Part shown: piece after piece, positions 10,008 through 18,994 of the stretch | How positions within the stretch are numbered: the first letter of the stretch is position 1 | How the letters are laid out: each line of letters begins with the position of its first letter | Origin: an uncultured Gemmiger sp. | GTDB lineage: Bacteria; Bacillota; Clostridia; Oscillospirales; Ruminococcaceae | Assembly (NCBI GenBank): GCA_944388175.1 | Contig: CALXHR010000003.1 | Coordinates: 62,001 to 126,000, forward strand | DNA length: 64,000 nt | Direction: 5' to 3' | Notes under the pieces: model-generated | Told to the model about the DNA's origin: nothing | Seen by the model: only the letters and a program-made list of their open reading frames with translations | The model's database searches: none | Position numbers and translations under genes: made by a program

Positions 10008-11048
10008 TTACCCGATCACTTCGCCGGTGGGGACGTTGTTCTCATGCAGGGGGAAATGGCAGGCAACCCAGTGGCCGTCGCTCAGCTCGCGCCACTCGGG
10101 CACTTCGTGCTTACATTTCTCCTGGCAGTAGCGGCAGCGGGTGTGGAACTTGCAGCCCTCGGGCGGGTTGACCGGGCTGGGGATATCGCCTTCCAGCAGG
10201 ATGCGCTCGCGGCCGCCGTCCTCCTCGGTCGTGGGGATGGCGGAGAGCAGGGCCTCGGTGTAGGGGTGCAGCGTATCGCTGAACAGTTCCTCGGCGTCGG
10301 CCAGCTCAACCAGATTGCCCAGGTACATGACGGCGATGCGGTCGCTGATGTACTTGACAACGCTGAGGTCGTGGGTGATGAAGAGGTAGGTCAGGCCCGC
10401 TTTGGCTTTGAGGTCCGACAGCAGGTTCAAAATCTGCGACTGGATGGAGACGTCCAGCGCCGAGACCGCTTCGTCGCAGACGACAAAGCGCGGGCGCAGC
10501 GCCAGGCTGCGCGCGATGCCGATGCGCTGCCGCTGCCCACCCGAGAACTGGTGCGGGTAGCGGTTGAACATATAGGTGGCAAGGCCGCATTCCTCCATGA
10601 CCTGGAAGATATATTCCTTCATGGCGGGGTCGTTTTTCTTAAAGATGCCGTGCGAGGTCAGGCCCTCGCCGATGATCTGGCCCACCGTCATGCGCGGGTT
10701 CAGCGAGGAGTACGGGTCCTGGAAGATCAGCTGCAGGTCTTTGCGCAGCACGCGCATCTGCTCTGCGTTTTGCTGCTTCAGGTCGATGGCCTGGCCGTCC
10801 TTGTGGTAGATGATGTCGCCGTGGGTCTGCGGGTAGAGCTGCAAAATGGTGCGGCCCAGCGTCGATTTGCCGCAGCCAGACTCGCCCACCAGGCCCAGCG
10901 TCTCGCCCTCGTAAATTTCCAGCGTGATGCCGTCGTTGGCGCGCACATAGCGCTGCTTTTCGCGCAGTTTGGTCTTTTTGACCGGGAAGTACTGTTTGAC
11001 GTCGCGCACTTCCAGCAGGACCTTGCGGCCGTTTTGATCATTTTTCAT
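10008..11048 (-). CDS. oppF: oligopeptide ABC transporter ATP-binding protein
   Basis: One of the two ATPases that power peptide import. It carries Walker A GESGCGKST (about 55-63), the Q-loop region FQDPYSSLNP, the signature SGGQRQRIGIARSLAL, Walker B FVVCDEAVSALD and the H-loop ITHDLSVV. The C-terminal extension has the Cys-rich oligopeptide/dipeptide-transporter stretch GCKFHTRCRYCQEKCKHEVPEW, a likely metal-cluster site in OppD/OppF/DppD-type proteins. It overlaps the oppD end by 11 bases, which implies coupled translation. The name oppF rather than dppF is a family choice; substrates are not shown by sequence. Confidence 0.93.
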   Translation of the reverse strand: MKNDQNGRKVLLEVRDVKQYFPVKKTKLREKQRYVRANDGITLEIYEGETLGLVGESGCGKSTLGRTILQLYPQTHGDIIYHKDGQAIDLKQQNAEQMRVLRKDLQLIFQDPYSSLNPRMTVGQIIGEGLTSHGIFKKNDPAMKEYIFQVMEECGLATYMFNRYPHQFSGGQRQRIGIARSLALRPRFVVCDEAVSALDVSIQSQILNLLSDLKAKAGLTYLFITHDLSVVKYISDRIAVMYLGNLVELADAEELFSDTLHPYTEALLSAIPTTEEDGGRERILLEGDIPSPVNPPEGCKFHTRCRYCQEKCKHEVPEWRELSDGHWVACHFPLHENNVPTGEVIG

Positions 11049-12033
11049 TTTGCTGTCTCACCGCCTTTTCCGCATAGAAGCAACGTACCAGATGGTTGGG
11101 GCCGACCTCCTGCAGGGGCGGCTCTTCCGCAAGGCATTTCTGGGTGCAGTACTTGCAGCGGGGCGCAAACTTGCAGCCCTTGGGCAGGTACAGGGGGTTG
11201 GGCACCGCGCCGGGGATGGCGTCGAGCTTTTTGCCCTTGGGGGTGTTGAGCCGCGGGATGGAGATCATCAACCCCTCGGTATAGGGGTGCGAGTAGACCG
11301 ACTTGTGGAAAATTTCCTTCGCGTCGGCTTTCTCGACGATCTGGCCGCAGTACATGACGGCGACCTCGTCGGCCATCTCATGGATGACGCCCAGGTCGTG
11401 GGTGATGAAGAGGATCGAAGTGCCGGTCTGGCGCTTGAGATCGTTCATCAGCTTGAGGATCTGCGCCTGGATGGTCACGTCCAGCGCGGTGGTGGGCTCG
11501 TCGGCGATCAGCAGCTTGGGCTTGCAGGCCAGCGCCATGGCGATCATGACGCGCTGGCGCATACCGCCCGAAAGCTGGAACGGGTACTGCTTGGCCACGC
11601 GCTCGGGGTTGGGGATCTTGACGTCGGCCAGCAGTTCGGCCGCTTTGGCGCGGGCCTGCTGTTTGGTCATGTTCTGGTGGATCTGCAGCACCTCGCCGAT
11701 CTGACGCTCGACGGTGAACACCGGGTTGAGCGAGGTCATCGGCTCCTGAAAGATAACCGAAATCTCGTTGCCGCGGATGTGGTACATCTCTTTTTCGGTG
11801 CAGTGGAGGATATCGCGGCCGTCAAAGGTCACGCTGCCGCTGTCGATCCAGCCGTTGCCGTCCAGCAGCTTGATGATGCTCATGGCAGAGACGCTCTTGC
11901 CGGAGCCGGACTCGCCGACGATGCCCAGCGTCTTGCCTGCTTCCAGCGAGTAGGTGACGTCGTTGACCGCCTTGACGATGCCCTTTTTGGTCTTGAAATA
12001 GGTGTGAAGATTCTTCACTTCCAGCAAACTCAT
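11038..12033 (-). CDS. oppD: oligopeptide ABC transporter ATP-binding protein
   Basis: Partner ATPase to OppF, 331 residues. It has Walker A GESGSGKS, the FQEPMTSLNP block, signature LSGGMRQRVMIAMAL, Walker B LIADEPTTALDV and the H-loop ITHDLGVI. The C-terminal GCKFAPRCKYCTQKCLAEEPP is again the Cys-bearing transporter extension. ATG 12033 was chosen over longer readings because AGGAGAGG sits just upstream, inside the last codons of oppC; seven bases separate it from the oppC stop. Confidence 0.94.
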   Translation of the reverse strand: MSLLEVKNLHTYFKTKKGIVKAVNDVTYSLEAGKTLGIVGESGSGKSVSAMSIIKLLDGNGWIDSGSVTFDGRDILHCTEKEMYHIRGNEISVIFQEPMTSLNPVFTVERQIGEVLQIHQNMTKQQARAKAAELLADVKIPNPERVAKQYPFQLSGGMRQRVMIAMALACKPKLLIADEPTTALDVTIQAQILKLMNDLKRQTGTSILFITHDLGVIHEMADEVAVMYCGQIVEKADAKEIFHKSVYSHPYTEGLMISIPRLNTPKGKKLDAIPGAVPNPLYLPKGCKFAPRCKYCTQKCLAEEPPLQEVGPNHLVRCFYAEKAVRQQNEK

Positions 12034-12040
12034 ACGTCGA

Positions 12041-13858
12041 TCACCTCTCCTTCGATTTCGGGTCGATAGCGTCGCGCAGGCCGTCGCCCACACAGTTGAT
12101 GCTGATGGTGCAGACGCCGAACGCGATGGCCGGGAACAGCCAGCGCCACCAGTAATTCTCGATGACCTGGCCGTTCTGCGCGCCGTTGAGCATGTTGCCC
12201 CAGGTGGCGTTGGGCTCGGTGACGCCGAAGCCGATGAAGGACAGCGACGATTCCGTCAGCATACAGGTGGCAAAGTCCAGCGTGGCGTTGACGATGATGA
12301 CGGTGATGATGTTGGGCAGGATGTGGCGCAGGATGATGCCGAACTCCTTGACGCCCAGCGCCTTGGCGGCGGTGACGAACTCCTGCTCACGCTCGGCCAG
12401 GACGCTGCCGCGCACCAGGCGGGCGATGCCCGGCCAGGACAGCAGGCCCAGGATGAACATGATGAGGATGATGCGCTGCAGCTCGCTAATGCTGTTACCC
12501 AAAATGCTGGACAAAATGATACAGAACGGCAGGAACGGGATGGATGAGACAATCTCGGTCAGACGCATGAGCAGGTTGTCGATCTTGCCGCCCTTATAGC
12601 CCGAGATACCGCCCACCAGCACGCCGATGAAGGTGGAGATGATGACGGCGATAAAACCGACGGTCATCGTCATGCGGCCGCCCAGCAGCAGGCGGCGGAA
12701 CACGTCGCGGCCCAGCTGGTCGGTGCCCATCAGGTAGCCGTCCAGGCCCCAGCTCTCGGCGTTGCCGTTCTCGTCGATGGCATAGCTGCCGAAGTAGTTG
12801 GTAAAGACGTCGGTCACACCGGTCATTTTGGGGGCGTTGGTCTGGCCAAAGTTGTTGTTGCCCCAGCTGGTCACGGTGCCGTCGTCCAGAATGGCGGTGT
12901 AGTGGTAACGGCCGCCCTCAATATCGACGACATGGCCCTGGATTTCCTCGGGCACGTTCATGGAACCGTAGACGTTGTTGCCCCAGGTGTACACCTGGCC
13001 GTCGGCGGTCAGCGCGGCGGCGCTCTCGTCCGAGAGGGCGATGTCGACGGTGTTGCCCTGTACTTCCTCCGGCACATTGGTGTAGGCCGAAGGCTTGTTG
13101 GACAGCGGCTCGACGCGGCCGTCGTTGGTCAGGGCGATGACGATGTTGGGGTTATCCTCAAACTGGGCGATGTTGCCCTGTACGCCTTCGGGGAAATAGA
13201 TGCTGAGCAGATACGAGCTGCCCCAGTTGTACAGGCGGCCGTTCTCGGTCAGCGCCAGCGAGAACTGGTGCCCGGCCGAAATCTGCTTGATGGGCTGGCG
13301 GCTGACTTCCAGCTCGACGGGGATGGACGTCAGGCCCATGCGGTCGTTGCCCCAGGTGAAAATCTGCCCCTCGGCGTTGACGGCCAGCACATGGTCGTAG
13401 CCGGCCGAAATCTGGGTCAAGGGGCCCATCTCGCTGGCGGCGGGGATGCTTTTGAGTTTCTCGGTGGGGAACGTGCCCCACTCATACACGTTGCCGTCCT
13501 TGTCCAGCCCTACCGAGAAGGTGCTGCCCACGGAAAGCGCCTGGACGTTGCCCTGCAGCGAGTCGGGAACCTTCAGCAAACCAAAGCCGGGGGCGGCGTT
13601 GGCCTGGGTCACGTCCTGGTAGTTGAGTTCGATCGGGAAAAAGAAGGGAAGGATCATGCAGCACAGGAAGATGACGACGAACAGGCACAGGCCGACCACC
13701 GCGATCTTGTCTTTGATAAAGCTGGTCACCACCATGCGCAGGGGGCTTTGCATCAATTCTTCGTCCTGTTCCTCCTGGGGCATGCCGCCCATAAACATGC
13801 GCTCGGCTGCCGCGGCCGCGGTAGATTTCCTGCCGGCGTCTTTCTGTTTTTTGGCCAT
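12041..13858 (-). CDS. oppC: oligopeptide ABC transporter permease OppC with inserted seven-repeat RCC1-like beta-propeller
   Basis: The C-terminal part (about 376-605) is an ordinary OppC permease: GTDQLGRDVFRRLLLGG, several membrane segments and the EAA-type loop AKALGVKEFGIILRHILPN that contacts the ATPases. The N-terminus is the usual cytoplasmic tail and first membrane segment (51-73). Between them lies an extra domain of about 270 residues (about 100-372, bases 12740-13561). It consists of seven repeats of about 40 residues, starting near 105, 147, 190, 230, 271, 310 and 348, with the pattern I-x-x-G-x-x-H-x-x-A-L-x-x-D-G-x-V-x-x-W-G. These are RCC1-type repeats, and seven is the count for a closed propeller, as in RCC1 and BLIP-II. 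Topology puts it outside the membrane, where OppA docks. Normal OppC is about 300 residues; this is 605. ATG 13858 follows AAGGAGG. Confidence 0.93.
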   Translation of the reverse strand: MAKKQKDAGRKSTAAAAAERMFMGGMPQEEQDEELMQSPLRMVVTSFIKDKIAVVGLCLFVVIFLCCMILPFFFPIELNYQDVTQANAAPGFGLLKVPDSLQGNVQALSVGSTFSVGLDKDGNVYEWGTFPTEKLKSIPAASEMGPLTQISAGYDHVLAVNAEGQIFTWGNDRMGLTSIPVELEVSRQPIKQISAGHQFSLALTENGRLYNWGSSYLLSIYFPEGVQGNIAQFEDNPNIVIALTNDGRVEPLSNKPSAYTNVPEEVQGNTVDIALSDESAAALTADGQVYTWGNNVYGSMNVPEEIQGHVVDIEGGRYHYTAILDDGTVTSWGNNNFGQTNAPKMTGVTDVFTNYFGSYAIDENGNAESWGLDGYLMGTDQLGRDVFRRLLLGGRMTMTVGFIAVIISTFIGVLVGGISGYKGGKIDNLLMRLTEIVSSIPFLPFCIILSSILGNSISELQRIILIMFILGLLSWPGIARLVRGSVLAEREQEFVTAAKALGVKEFGIILRHILPNIITVIIVNATLDFATCMLTESSLSFIGFGVTEPNATWGNMLNGAQNGQVIENYWWRWLFPAIAFGVCTISINCVGDGLRDAIDPKSKER

Positions 13859-13873
13859 AGTCAGGGAACCTCC

Positions 13874-14866
13874 TTAGTTTTCGAGCCGGACCCGCGGGTC
13901 GACGATGGTGTAAGCGATATCCATGATGACGTTGCCGGCCAGCGCCAGAATGACGTAGAACATCTGCATCGTCAAGACGATGGAGAAGTCACGCTGCATC
14001 AGGCCGTCGATGAGCATCTTGCCCAGGCCGGGCCAGAGAAAGACGCTTTCGATAACGACCGAGCCGCCGAACAGCGCCACGACCCACGCCGTCGCGATGG
14101 TGACGATGGGGATAAGCGCGTTGCGGAACGCATGGACGTAGATGACGGTCTTTTCTTTGAGGCCTTTGGCGCGGGCGGTCTTGATATAATCCATGCGCAG
14201 CACGTCGATCATCTCGGCGCGGACATAGCGCGTGATGCTGCCGATGCCCGAGATGGACATGACGATGGCCGGCAGCGCCATGTGCCACGCGGTATCTAAG
14301 AACATTTCAAACCCGTTGCCCGAAAAGCCCGGCGACCGCACGCCGCTGATGGGGAAGATGGGAATTTTGACCGCGAAGGCGAAGATCAGCAACAGGGCGA
14401 TGATGAAGCTGGGCAGGCTGTAGCCCACGATGGTGATGACCTGGATGAATTTGTCGAACACGCCGTTTTTGCGCACGGCGGTGGCGATGCCCAGCGGGAT
14501 GGAGATGGCGAACACCACCAGCATCGATACGGCGTTGAGCATCAGCGTGTTGAGCATCGGGGTGCCGATGACCTCGATGACGTCGCGCTTATACTGGGTC
14601 GAGTACCCGAAGTTGCCGGTAAGCATGTTGCCGATCCAGATGAAATACTGCACCACCAGCGGCTTGTCGAGGCCGAGCTGTAAATAGGTGCGGTCGTACA
14701 ATGCCTGGTAGGCGTCCGGCTTCATGCTCTGGCTCACATCGCCCAGCATCATGCGCACGGGGTCGCCCGGCATGGACTTGTAGATGAAAAACATCAAGAT
14801 CGAGATGATGAAAAATACGAATACGATATAGACAAGACGCCGTACCAGGTACCTGCCTTTGCCCAT
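13874..14866 (-). CDS. oppB: oligopeptide ABC transporter permease
   Basis: First permease subunit, 330 residues, with a membrane segment at the start (LVYIVFVFFIISILMFFI), the OppB motif SMPGDPVRMMLG, the block YFIWIGNMLTGNFGYS, and the EAA-type loop TARAKGLKEKTVIYVHAFRNALIPI near 220-245. ATG 14866 is preferred because GGGGGG lies about eight bases upstream; the in-frame ATG at 14881 has its AGGAA too close. It is followed 15 bases later by oppC. It lacks any inserted domain, unlike its partner. Confidence 0.93.
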   Translation of the reverse strand: MGKGRYLVRRLVYIVFVFFIISILMFFIYKSMPGDPVRMMLGDVSQSMKPDAYQALYDRTYLQLGLDKPLVVQYFIWIGNMLTGNFGYSTQYKRDVIEVIGTPMLNTLMLNAVSMLVVFAISIPLGIATAVRKNGVFDKFIQVITIVGYSLPSFIIALLLIFAFAVKIPIFPISGVRSPGFSGNGFEMFLDTAWHMALPAIVMSISGIGSITRYVRAEMIDVLRMDYIKTARAKGLKEKTVIYVHAFRNALIPIVTIATAWVVALFGGSVVIESVFLWPGLGKMLIDGLMQRDFSIVLTMQMFYVILALAGNVIMDIAYTIVDPRVRLEN

Positions 14867-14943
14867 TCGGTATCCCCCCATTTCCTGTGATTGGTGCCCG
14901 CGGGGGTGTGCCGCGGTTCAGTGCTTTAAAACGATGGTGCCTT

Positions 14944-14982: not shown

Positions 14983-15050
14983 AACCCTAGTTCGTTATGC
15001 CGTTGGCGTCACGCCGCCGGCTTGCGAGCGGGTGCGGCCCCGGGGCCGGG

Positions 15051-16970
15051 TCATTCAGAGACCCAGGCGTCCAGAAGCGCGCGCTCCCAACCCCAAATCG
15101 CGGTGGCTTCCCAGCCATGCAGCTTGGTGGAGTAGAAGTCGAAGTACTCATCAGAGTACAGGGGGATGTCGGGCATCTTCTCGTTCCAGACCTTGATGTA
15201 GTTACGCCAGGCTTCCATCCAGGCCTCGGTATCCTCGTAGGGGATGTTCTTCATGGCGCCGGAGGCGTCGGCCAGCTCCTGGTCGACGATCCAGTTGGAG
15301 TTGTAGCCCGCACGCATCCACATCTCGTCGGTGGAGTAGTAGTACCACGGGGAGTTGGCGGTGGCGAAGCCGGTGGCCAGATTGTACATGTTGTAGGTGG
15401 TCTCGCCGGCGTGGTTGATGCAGTCCTGCAGGGTGGCAAAGTCGGTGGTGGTCGCCTTCAGCTCCATGCCGGCCTCGGCCATGTTGGTGGGCAGCATGGT
15501 GGCCAGCAGGTCAGAGACGGGGTTGCCCTCGGAGTTGCACCAGGTGATGACCAGCGGCTGCAGCGTGCCGTCAACATCCTTGTAGCGGGTGCCGGTGCCG
15601 GAGTAGGGGGTACCGTCGGCGTTCAGGTTCCAGCCGTCGGCTTCCAGCAGTTCTTTGGCGGTGTCGACGTTGACTTCATAGCTGTTCAGGTTTTCAGCCA
15701 GCCAGTCGGCGTTCTCGGTGTACTCGACCTGGGCCAGGCCGTAGGCGGCGTTGACGACCGCGGCGTAACCGCCGGAGTACTGGCGCGCGAACTCGTTACG
15801 GTCCAGGCAGTAGGCAATGGCCTGGCGGACGGCGGCGCTGTCGGTGGGGAAGACGCTGCAGTCGAACTGGATCTTGCCGTAGCCGTTGCGGTAGTAGGTG
15901 GTGTCGGCGGCAATGCCCTCCTCGACAAGGTCGAGGCCGGCGTTGATGGTGTCCGCGCCGCTGGACTGGAACAGCAGGTCGACGGAACCGGCTTCCAGCT
16001 CGTTGACCATCGTGTCGCTGGAGACAGTGCGGACGACCAGCGTCTCGATGACGGGCTTAACACCGCGGTAGTCGCCGTTGTACTTGGGGTTGACCTTCAG
16101 GGTCGCCTCCTGGGCGGCCTCGTCAAAGCCGGCGAACAGGTAGGGGCCGCAGGTGACCTGCGGGTTGTAGCGGTAGCCGGTGTCGATGTTGTTGATGGTC
16201 TCTTCCAGCAGTTCGGAGGTGAAGTCGCCGGTGATGCGGGCGCCGTTCTCGGTGTCCTCGACGTCGCAGCCCGGGGCGATGACGGCCATCGGGCGGGGAC
16301 GGGCAATGGCGTAGGAGATATCGTAGTGGTAGGGCAGTTCCTCGGCCTTGACGGTGAGCGAGAAGGTCATATCGTCGATGAGGTGCACGCCGGCAAAGGT
16401 GTCGGTGGCGCCCTCGTTGTATTCTTCATAGCCGACGTAGACGTTCATGTTGGCGCCGGGGTAGCCGATCTCGATCATCGTGGGGCTGTTCTCGAGCAGC
16501 ATCGCAAAGACGTAGTCCTTGGCGGTGATGGGGCTGCCGTCGCTCCACACCAGGCCGTCGTTGATGGTCATGGTGTAGGTCTTGGAGCCGTCCTCGTTGT
16601 CGGTCTCCTCGTGGGAAGCCAGGACGGTGTCGTTGTAGGCGAACTCGCCTTCCTTGGTGTAGACGACCGTGTCGCCGCCATGGATCAGGTCATACATGGC
16701 GTAGTTGGTCGCCGAGTTCGAGAAAGCAGTGTCGTAGAACTCGTTGATGACCTGGGTGGTCGAGCCGATGACCAGCTGGCCGGAGGGCTCAGTGGGGCGG
16801 GTGCTGGTTTCCTCAGCGGCAGCCTCCTCCGAGGTCGCCGCTTCCGTGGAGGAAGCAGACGAATCCGCCGCAGCGTCGTTGGTGACCGTCTCCTGGCCGC
16901 CGCAGGCCGCCAGCGAGACCGCCATGGTCCCCGCCAGCAGCAGGGACGCGATCTTGGTTGCGTTCTTCAT
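15051..16970 (-). CDS. oppA: oligopeptide-binding lipoprotein (ABC transporter substrate-binding protein)
   Basis: Extracellular family 5 solute-binding protein that captures peptides and delivers them to OppBC. The first 23 residues are a lipoprotein signal ending in the lipobox LAAC with Cys23, followed by a low-complexity Ser/Ala/Glu linker to about residue 57. The mature domain shows typical marks: NDGLVWSDGSPITAKDYVFAMLL (about 137-160), VAGF-like FAGFDEAAQEATLKVNPKYNGDY and AVRQAIAYCLDRNEFARQY near 385. At 639 residues it is a little longer than most OppA proteins. It is the promoter-proximal and probably most expressed gene of the operon. Confidence 0.94.
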   Translation of the reverse strand: MKNATKIASLLLAGTMAVSLAACGGQETVTNDAAADSSASSTEAATSEEAAAEETSTRPTEPSGQLVIGSTTQVINEFYDTAFSNSATNYAMYDLIHGGDTVVYTKEGEFAYNDTVLASHEETDNEDGSKTYTMTINDGLVWSDGSPITAKDYVFAMLLENSPTMIEIGYPGANMNVYVGYEEYNEGATDTFAGVHLIDDMTFSLTVKAEELPYHYDISYAIARPRPMAVIAPGCDVEDTENGARITGDFTSELLEETINNIDTGYRYNPQVTCGPYLFAGFDEAAQEATLKVNPKYNGDYRGVKPVIETLVVRTVSSDTMVNELEAGSVDLLFQSSGADTINAGLDLVEEGIAADTTYYRNGYGKIQFDCSVFPTDSAAVRQAIAYCLDRNEFARQYSGGYAAVVNAAYGLAQVEYTENADWLAENLNSYEVNVDTAKELLEADGWNLNADGTPYSGTGTRYKDVDGTLQPLVITWCNSEGNPVSDLLATMLPTNMAEAGMELKATTTDFATLQDCINHAGETTYNMYNLATGFATANSPWYYYSTDEMWMRAGYNSNWIVDQELADASGAMKNIPYEDTEAWMEAWRNYIKVWNEKMPDIPLYSDEYFDFYSTKLHGWEATAIWGWERALLDAWVSE

Positions 16971-17008
16971 GTTTGGTCAAAAACCTCCCTTTTCTTCCAC
17001 GACCGAAC

Positions 17009-17080
17009 GCCGGCGCGACAGGATGTCATGGTTTTCTGGGTCCCCAGAAAACCCAAAAGGGCATGCCCTTTTGCGCCGGC
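17009..17080 (-). ncRNA. structured leader element of the opp operon (three-way-junction fold)
   Basis: Within the oppA leader three nested inverted repeats fit together. The outer arms are GCCGGCGC (plus 17009-17016) and GCGCCGGC (17073-17080), eight perfect pairs. Inside are two further perfect repeats: GGTTTTCTGGG (17030-17040) with CCCAGAAAACC (17043-17053), and the 18-base palindrome AAAAGGGCATGCCCTTTT (17055-17072). As RNA this makes a compact three-way junction about 40-110 bases before the start codon. It matches no riboswitch class I know. It could also be a mobile or repeated palindrome, or a DNA operator. Confidence 0.55.
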
Positions 17081-17134
17081 TATCCACACGCGGTGTTCCC
17101 GCACCGCGCACAAACACATTCAGCCGATTGTTCA

Positions 17135-17163
17135 ATTATACAGGTTTGTCACACCGCTGTCAA
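17135..17163 (-). promoter_or_regulatory. strong sigma-A promoter of the opp operon
   Basis: On the minus strand a perfect TTGACA (plus 17158-17163) and a perfect TATAAT (plus 17135-17140) are 17 bases apart. Transcription would start near 17128, giving a leader of about 158 bases before oppA. The remainder of the 320-base gap, 17164-17290, shows no gene. Confidence 0.9.
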
Positions 17164-17290
17164 TGTTTGCACACATTTCCCGGGGTGTTTTTGGCAGTTT
17201 CCTCAAAGATACGCGCGATTTTTGGCGAAACCGCCCAGACCCCCTGCCGGGGCCTGTCGGCATTGCAAAGACAACTGTCCCCTGCCCTGC

Positions 17291-18994
17291 TCACGCGATG
17301 CCGGTCAGGTCGAAGCTGTCCAGCCAGCGGCTGGCGGCCTCGCAGACGCTGCGCAGGCAGTCCGGTTCGAAGGGGCTGACCATGCCGGCGTTTGCCAGCA
17401 GTTCGGTGAATACTTTGGTGCCGCCCTGGCGGGTGTAGGCCATGTAGTGCGCCCAGGCGTCTTTGGGGTCTTGCTGGATCATGGCCCAGAACTCCAGCGA
17501 GACAGTCTGCGCCAGGCAGTAGTCAATATAATAGAACGGGCTGGAGTAGATGTGGTGCTTTTGCTGCCAGCTCTCGCCGTTGCCATAGAACGGGATATCG
17601 CCGTCCAGCCGCAGCCAGGGCATGTAGGTGCCCAGCAGGTCTTTCCAGACGGCGTGGCGCTCGGCGGGGGTCAGGTCGGGTTTCTCGTACACGATGTGCT
17701 GGAAATGGTCCACCGCCGTGCCGTAGGGGATGAAGGTCAGCGCCGCGGCCAGGTGGCTGTAGCGGAACTTGGCCGCGTCCTTGCCAAAAAAGCCCTCGGC
17801 CCACGGCCAGGCAAAGAACTCCATACTCATCGAGTGGACTTCGCAGGCTTCCATGGTGGGCCAGGTGTACTGCATCGGCACGCGGTCGCGGTTGGTCCAG
17901 GCGGCAAAGGCGTGGCCGGCCTCGTGGGTGACGACCTCCACGTCGCCCTGGGTGCCGTTGAAGTTGGCAAAGATGAAGGGGACGTTGTAGTCGGGGAGGG
18001 AGGTGCAGTAGCCGCCGCTGGCCTTGCCGGGGGTGGAAAGCACGTCCAGCAGCTTGCCGTCCAGCATAGTGTTGAAGAACACGCTCGTCTCGGGCGAGAG
18101 TTCGTCGTAGAAGGTCTTGCCCATGGCCAAAATGGCGTCGGCGTCGCCCGCCGGGCGCGGGTTGCCGGAGCGGAACATCAGCGCCTCGTCGGCGTAGCTC
18201 ATCGGGTAGGGCACGCCCAGCCGCTCGGCCTGGGCGCGGCAGACGCGCTCGGCCACCGGCACCAGATACCGGACGACGGCGGCGCGGAACTGCTCGATAT
18301 CCGCCTTGGTGTAGCAGTTGCGCTGCATGCGGTAGTAGCCCAGCGTGGTGTAGCCCTCGTACCCCAGCTTTTTGCCCATGCCGTCGCGCAGGTGGACGAG
18401 TTTGTCGTAGATTTCGTCCATCTGGGGCTGGTTTTCTTTGAACCAGCGGCCTTCCGCCTTCCAGGCGGCCAGGCGGCGGGCGTCGTCGGCGTCGGTCTTG
18501 TAGGGGGTCAGCTGGCTCAAGGTGCAGACGCTGCCCTCAAAGGGGATCTGGGCGCTGGCCAGCAGTTTTTCGTACTCCTGCGTCAGGTCGTTCTCCTTTT
18601 GCAGGTCGGGCACGATCTCGGGCGCAAAGGTTTTGCGGGCCATCTCGGCATTTTGGAACATCAGATCGCCGTACTCGGCCGCAAAATCGGCGCGGAAGGG
18701 GCTTTCGAGCAGGACGGCGATGAAGGCGTCGCGGCAGACCTGCAGCTCGGGGTCGGCGGCGTTCCAGAATTTAGACTCGCCGTCGTAAAAGGCGTCGCGG
18801 GTGTCGATGCTGTGGCGGGTGCTGGCCAGCGTGGCCAGCGTCTGGATGTGGCGCTCGAGCGCGTCATTCTCCAAAAAGGCGGCGCGGGCGGCGGGGTAAT
18901 CGGCCGCGGCGCGCAGCCGGGCGGTGATGGCGTCGTAGTCGGCTTTCAGCGCCGCCAGGTCGGGGCGCTGGTAGGGCATTTCGGGGAAAGTCAT
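17291..18994 (-). CDS. pepF: M3 family oligoendopeptidase F
   Basis: Cytoplasmic zinc metallopeptidase of 567 residues that cuts imported oligopeptides. The HEAGH zinc motif is at 357-361 and the third ligand is Glu385 in the block EACEVHSMSMEFFAW; GESWQQKHHIYSSPFYYIDY near 490-510 is the substrate-binding region typical of M3 peptidases. The N-terminal helical half covers the cleft. It lies just upstream of the opp operon in the same direction, so uptake and hydrolysis genes are linked, but oppA has its own promoter between them. Confidence 0.95.
   Translation of the reverse strand: MTFPEMPYQRPDLAALKADYDAITARLRAAADYPAARAAFLENDALERHIQTLATLASTRHSIDTRDAFYDGESKFWNAADPELQVCRDAFIAVLLESPFRADFAAEYGDLMFQNAEMARKTFAPEIVPDLQKENDLTQEYEKLLASAQIPFEGSVCTLSQLTPYKTDADDARRLAAWKAEGRWFKENQPQMDEIYDKLVHLRDGMGKKLGYEGYTTLGYYRMQRNCYTKADIEQFRAAVVRYLVPVAERVCRAQAERLGVPYPMSYADEALMFRSGNPRPAGDADAILAMGKTFYDELSPETSVFFNTMLDGKLLDVLSTPGKASGGYCTSLPDYNVPFIFANFNGTQGDVEVVTHEAGHAFAAWTNRDRVPMQYTWPTMEACEVHSMSMEFFAWPWAEGFFGKDAAKFRYSHLAAALTFIPYGTAVDHFQHIVYEKPDLTPAERHAVWKDLLGTYMPWLRLDGDIPFYGNGESWQQKHHIYSSPFYYIDYCLAQTVSLEFWAMIQQDPKDAWAHYMAYTRQGGTKVFTELLANAGMVSPFEPDCLRSVCEAASRWLDSFDLTGIA

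Follow-up and report, generated by a model that had tools for sequence, protein, structure and literature searches.

The best solved sequence match to the insert described here was BLIP-II (PDB 3qhy and 1jtd; E = 1.9e-38), which is described in PMC6121496 as a propeller of seven blades, each of three antiparallel strands. The blades of our model of the insert are likewise seven and three-stranded. BLIP-II, however, is a free secreted inhibitor, whereas the OppC propeller is part of a membrane permease, and binding of beta-lactamase is not implied for the latter. The RCC1 and UVR8 propellers share RCC1 repeats with the insert (above the Pfam cut-offs), but their sequence match was weaker than that of BLIP-II, the OppC blades are three-stranded, and there is no Ran or chromatin setting here. 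On the importer side, the OppC proteins of 8z21 and of M. tuberculosis (8j5q) have the N-terminal helix, GTDxxGRD core, coupling loop and OppABCDF operon that we observed. The first outer loop of 8z21, which we take to be E. coli OppC, has about three residues as read from a weak N-terminal alignment, in contrast to about 282 in the protein described here. MalF-P2 is likewise a large, folded domain inserted on the outer side of a single permease subunit in a type I importer; it occupies another permease position and belongs to another subunit family than the OppC insert. No MalF chain was observed among the PDB sequence matches of OppC or of its insert. Segment 240-249 of MalF-P2 is reported to contact MalE directly (PMC3150292).

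The window (the whole stretch of 64,000 nucleotides analysed, from an uncultured Gemmiger sp.) carries an oppC gene whose reading frame is unbroken across 605 aa. Both OppC_N (residues 38-90, whole profile, 1.2e-10) and BPD_transp_1 (residues 412-602, 5e-36) were found above the Pfam cut-offs. From residue 373 the core aligned with 8z21 OppC from residue 80 onward (3.8e-53), and residues 46-90 paired with 8z21 residues 32-76 at a score below significance. Because OppC_N ends at residue 90 and the core alignment begins at 373, we took residues 91-372 as the insert, about 282 residues between the first helix and the GTDxxGRD core. A preliminary description of this DNA had noted about 270 extra residues there, at 12736..13561; the size and place were close to ours, while the bounds are refined here to 12743-13588 by these two ends. 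The NCBIfam equivalog cut-off was not reached by OppC (best Opp4C, 326.9 bits against 350) and we claim no named subfamily. The parts of the gene were assigned as follows.

12041..13858, minus strand: oppC, 605 aa, peptide ABC importer permease with an inserted predicted propeller (open reading frame, Pfam, alignment to solved OppC)
13640..13708, minus strand: first membrane helix, residues 51-73 (hydropathy maximum at 52-70; helix at 51-73 in the model, of low confidence there)
12743..13588, minus strand: inserted domain, residues 91-372 (between the OppC_N end and the aligned core; RCC1 Pfam matches; BLIP-II match)
12044..12742, minus strand: permease core, residues 373-605, with GTDxxGRD, helices and the EAA-type loop at 497-515 (Pfam, PDB alignment, hydropathy)

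By hydropathy, the insert is preceded by one helix and followed by three more ahead of the EAA-type loop. In this permease family the EAA-type loop is cytoplasmic and contacts the ATPases. Since three helices separate the insert from this loop, the propeller most likely lies outside the cell, on the OppC half of the entrance, and helix parity thus agrees with the side of the membrane proposed earlier.

Three Pfam profiles matched the insert: the RCC1-like domain PF25390 (1.2e-62, 212.8 bits, cut-off 150), RCC1_2 (2e-39, 132.9 bits, cut-off 22, in five stretches) and RCC1 (1.4e-8). When the insert alone was compared to PDB sequences, BLIP-II was followed by UVR8, HERC and RCC1. Within the window's own assembly RCC1_2 matched oppC alone, and none of 14 control genomes gave an RCC1_2 match. 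An AlphaFold2 model built on 38 aligned sequences contained 21 strands in seven groups of three over residues 105-371, with block pLDDT of 70-96 over residues 91-370 and a poor membrane part (about 35-67). The preliminary description had named an RCC1 profile match and a propeller in structure prediction as checks, and both were found. It had also read seven successive repeats with W-G positions; seven three-stranded units were indeed predicted, but W-G anchors occur in only six of them (residues 127, 169, 212, 292, 332 and 370). The fourth repeat had no W-G in any of the 89 aligned rows, the window included. At the other six places, 58 rows had six tryptophans, 25 had five and 6 had four. The sequence matches and the model together support reading the insert as a complete seven-bladed propeller of RCC1/BLIP-II type, and the three-stranded blades of the model make BLIP-II a closer template than RCC1 itself. 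Each of the predicted blades below has three strands in the model.

13475..13546, minus strand: blade 1, residues 105-128, W-G at 127
13349..13420, minus strand: blade 2, residues 147-170, W-G at 169
13220..13291, minus strand: blade 3, residues 190-213, W-G at 212
13106..13171, minus strand: blade 4, residues 230-251, degenerate, lacking W-G in every aligned row
12980..13051, minus strand: blade 5, residues 270-293, W-G at 292
12860..12931, minus strand: blade 6, residues 310-333, W-G at 332
12746..12817, minus strand: blade 7, residues 348-371, W-G at 370, six residues before the GTD motif (also link conservation)

A genome-collection scan returned at least 38 complete propeller-OppC loci (L021-L056, L058, L061) among the 78 distinct loci kept, which represent 80 of 95 confirmed matches; L057 was cut within the propeller architecture, and L059 and L060 were contig-end pieces with the core alone. 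The complete loci came from records placed in Oscillospiraceae, Acutalibacteraceae, Lachnospiraceae and Erysipelotrichaceae. Within the window's genus, 7 of the 35 genomes examined contained a propeller OppC. A sample of the class gave at least 17 of 391 genomes at E 1e-60, two of which matched only part of the propeller, and this is a lower bound as up to three candidates per genome were scored. We also scanned with the core only, scoring up to seven candidates per genome, and observed a sharp gap in score both in the order (268 bits against 229 for the next match) and in the phylum (267 against 242). Above it stood 28 of the 394 genomes sampled from the order and 14 of the 398 from the phylum; being drawn from samples, these counts are not prevalences. 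The genomes above the gap numbered 41, and a propeller was observed in all of them. Thirty-five were examined anew and each matched a propeller profile (L167, L168 and L173 in proteins cut by a contig end), while the other six were among the earlier propeller loci. The two best phylum-scan matches below the gap (L183, L184) had no propeller.

In a tree of the core only, the 37 propeller rows formed one group with 100/100 support. This tree retained 37 of 55 propeller rows after thinning, with L099 absent, and was built without four hairpin-insert rows and the fragments L059 and L060. The core sequences thus point to one origin for the propeller OppC, and the architecture is supported as the mark of a group spread through Bacillota and not as a peculiarity of the window. 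An event unique to the window is ruled out by the number of complete loci and their single tree group, and an assembly artefact by the recurrence of the architecture in separate assemblies and in all core-defined genomes, so that the earlier reading of an unbroken frame in an intact operon as a true domain insertion stands. The homologue search that the preliminary description suggested for judging spread accordingly returned the same architecture in many Bacillota relatives. No plasmid copy was found: none of 72,556 plasmid records had a single place covering 80% of the protein. Strain-named, non-MAG records with the architecture include Gemmiger formicilis An723, Gemmiger sp. An120 and Anaeromassilibacillus sp. 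An200; these carriers are probably cultured, and the strains are presumably chicken-gut isolates. In the comparison of loci L027 and L029, the OppC of a MAG named Eisenbergiella (Lachnospiraceae) was about as near to that of the window (77%) as was the OppC of Gemmiger sp. An120 (75%), a sequence closeness that hints at gene transfer or misbinned contigs. In one propeller OppC of 696 aa (L110:1440-3530, minus strand), the second W-G repeat was followed by a low-complexity stretch of acidic character.

A second group of OppC proteins (L009-L012, L014-L019, L117-L126) has an unrelated insert of roughly 140-360 residues in the same place. It showed no propeller match, nor any Pfam match above cut-off in the four proteins scanned. 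In the core tree this group was separate from the one with propellers and had a single short-loop row (L020) nested inside it, and the OppC outer loop seems to be a recurrent insertion site. By eye, two further OppC proteins (L115:1825-3243 and L116:1683-3107, both minus strand) lacked a large outer insert and had additional hydrophobic segments ahead of the usual first helix.

The propeller evolved faster than the OppC core, with a mean conservation of 0.43 compared to 0.60 across the 89 rows (an alignment without L167 and L168, both truncated at a contig end). The dN/dS values, 0.31 for the propeller and 0.08 for the core (7 Gemmiger sequences, 21 pairs), show that it is under purifying selection, and none of the rows lacked more than 10 of the 270 propeller positions. 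The stretch before blade 1 (residues 74-104) had a conservation of 0.50, above the propeller mean, and the link after blade 7 was near invariant in the weighted rows (G371 100%, G374 100%, Y/F375 99%, G378 100%, D380 100%), which suggests that the propeller is fixed rather than floating. It is very improbable that the propeller is baggage that the protein tolerates, or an artefact of assembly or annotation, since its faster evolution is set against an architecture shared by dozens of separate assemblies, near-complete propellers in every aligned row and its presence in each core-defined genome.

The operon consists of a family 5 binding protein, a second permease and two ATPases together with OppC, and an oligoendopeptidase gene lies upstream.

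13874..14881, minus strand: oppB, 335 aa, no inserted domain (open reading frame, Pfam, NCBIfam)
15051..16970, minus strand: oppA, 639 aa, single SBP fold (Pfam, model; nearest folds AppA of B. subtilis and lactococcal OppA)
11038..12033, minus strand: oppD, ATPase; chosen start Met at 12033, the mechanical open reading frame starting at 12093 (open reading frame, profiles)
10008..11048, minus strand: oppF, ATPase, 346 aa, lacking the coiled-coil-like insert seen in distant relatives (profiles, Walker A to Q-loop spacing)
17291..18994, minus strand: M3-family oligoendopeptidase (TIGR02289), the next gene upstream of oppA, same strand (NCBIfam 525 bits, cut-off 442)

The order OppA-B-C-D-F was observed wherever the contig reached far enough, and OppA was always encoded there. 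Pfam found no insert in OppB, as the preliminary description had said. The OppA of the window has, by eye, a lipobox-like sequence at Cys23, and its model is a single binding-protein fold (pLDDT 86, with low confidence at residues 1-54). The closest folds were AppA of B. subtilis with a nonapeptide and lactococcal OppA (TM-score 0.60-0.68 over the query). The model contained no extra domain that could receive the propeller. Opposite oppA, an 813-aa antisense open frame was observed (window 14997-17438, plus strand), which we take as an effect of GC-rich composition. Among the 16 OppA proteins compared, five appeared circularly permuted (L154:6743-9001, L160:6681-8969, L164:6783-9047 and L165:6752-8995, minus strand; L158:2566-4896, plus strand), with the usual C-terminal 60 or so residues placed after the signal region and before the normal start. 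A binding protein with divergent topology, Tp0684 of Treponema, is described in PMC4990184. The comparison of OppA tethers between propeller operons and others drew on the only five outside sequences found.

An M3-family oligoendopeptidase was found in the flank of 37 of 76 loci, many of these flanks being short. Of these 37, nine came closest to the window type and 28 to a PepF-type query; identity to the latter was only 30-32% for three of the 28, one of which was cut short. Both types occupied the same operon-side place, TIGR02289 in some Gemmiger loci and PepF in others (window 17291-18994; upstream flanks of L021-L061), as if one had replaced the other. A flank gene in L058, presumably an M29 aminopeptidase, had no NCBIfam match at 1e-20. 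The M3 peptidases argue for oligopeptide substrates, and with the modelled OppA fold they make oligopeptide uptake the most likely function of this importer.

The reading of the propeller to which we give most weight, though tentatively and at somewhat less than even confidence, is that of a rigid platform on the outer side, by which OppA would be docked or retained, in analogy to, and unrelated by descent to, MalF-P2. Fixed between the conserved stretch after helix 1 and the near-invariant six-residue link to the GTD motif, the propeller would capture or retain lipid-anchored OppA loaded with a long peptide and orient it over the pore, as MalF-P2 does for maltose-binding protein; the imported peptide could then be cut by the neighbouring M3 peptidase. 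We compared evolutionary distances across 59 operons, excluding the five with permuted OppA and two outsiders, with the propeller taken as the 290 residues that precede the GTD motif, a cut that in the longest proteins removes part of the first blade. The OppA-propeller pair gave the strongest of 15 partial rank correlations (0.49), was also the highest with plain distances (0.50) and came first in 290 of 500 random halves. However, it fell to third of 15 when the set was thinned to 22 operons (0.38) or restricted to 36 near relatives (0.33). Nor is the measure specific, since the propeller and OppF, which are unable to touch, scored 0.34-0.40.

Charge complementarity was rejected as a sign of OppA docking, as the propeller and OppA were both acidic in all 59 operons, which disfavours a simple electrostatic attachment. 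Conservation likewise gave no binding side: the turns of the two propeller faces, assigned from strand order and not from coordinates, were equally conserved (0.443 and 0.445). The platform for OppA is thus favoured by an OppA encoded in the operon, by the top-ranking correlation and by an OppA fold like that of peptide-bound AppA. It is weakened by the drop of that correlation, the shared acidity, the equal faces and an OppA with no receiving domain, and also by the existence of Opp systems that have a plain OppC and do entirely without a propeller. On balance we slightly favour the holding of OppA over sensing, gating or an external enzyme, all of which the preliminary description had raised.

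Less probably, what the propeller binds outside the cell is not OppA but another protein or a peptide; candidates would include secreted peptidases, proteins from the host or the diet, and the cell wall, and peptides would be released beside the importer. The tight protein binding reported for its nearest solved relative BLIP-II (PMC6121496), the faster change of the propeller compared to the core and the peptidases near the operon are consistent with this. However, the linked peptidases match oligoendopeptidase families that we take to be cytoplasmic, and an arms race is not indicated by dN/dS values well below 1. The flanks yielded no secreted gene that recurred; only the M3 peptidase and the Opp genes stood out clearly in this survey, in which antisense frames of GC-rich genes dominated the clusters and blurred the result. 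A fuller version, in which a BLIP-II-type propeller would recruit such an outside protein and couple peptide release and uptake at the membrane, with OppF remodelled too in lineages outside the near group, appears slightly less probable again.

We consider it rather unlikely that the propeller works without a partner of its own as a lid or filter, narrowing access to the pore on the OppC side or altering the energetics of gating and so limiting peptide size or charge. A short link of near-invariant sequence joins the propeller to the GTD motif ahead of helix 2; this and the net negative charge in 59 of 59 operons would suit such a role, but the model is too poor in its membrane part to place the propeller over the pore.

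The OppF sequences bear on a further reading, in which the propeller senses a ligand and signals its state to the ATPases, the importer doubling as a receptor. An insert of 130-200 aa between Walker A and the Q-loop was observed in 28 of 64 readable propeller operons (spacing 185-256), while 11 loci outside the propeller group with a readable frame of that kind had a normal spacing of 49-55. Part of the group has therefore also remodelled the cytoplasmic side. The insert appeared, by eye, charged and coiled-coil-like (e.g. L174:1018-2550, L149:913-2472 and L154:886-2559, all minus strand). It was found in all 28 readable propeller operons outside the window's near group, whereas the OppF of the window and all 36 readable operons of the near group (spacing 53) lacked it. 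No linked regulator was noticed, and we regard a sensor as quite improbable.

Both the importer and the propeller are of known kinds, and we found their combination in none of the open-licence papers listed. No description of an RCC1-type propeller within OppC was found among them, although a 2008 survey of RCC1-like repeat proteins, cited in PMC9218822, may mention one. In the text of that 2022 propeller survey (PMC9218822), the RCC1/BLIP-II group was mostly bacterial in the data compiled, and that text did not mention an ABC transporter. For gut bacteria living on protein, peptide importers are important, and the list of their parts is usually regarded as settled. Because the closest solved relative of the propeller is an excellent protein binder, its partner can be sought directly. 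The presence of the propeller in every group member found would imply an entrance step that standard importer models lack, and the conserved architecture points to a conserved job at the transporter entrance.
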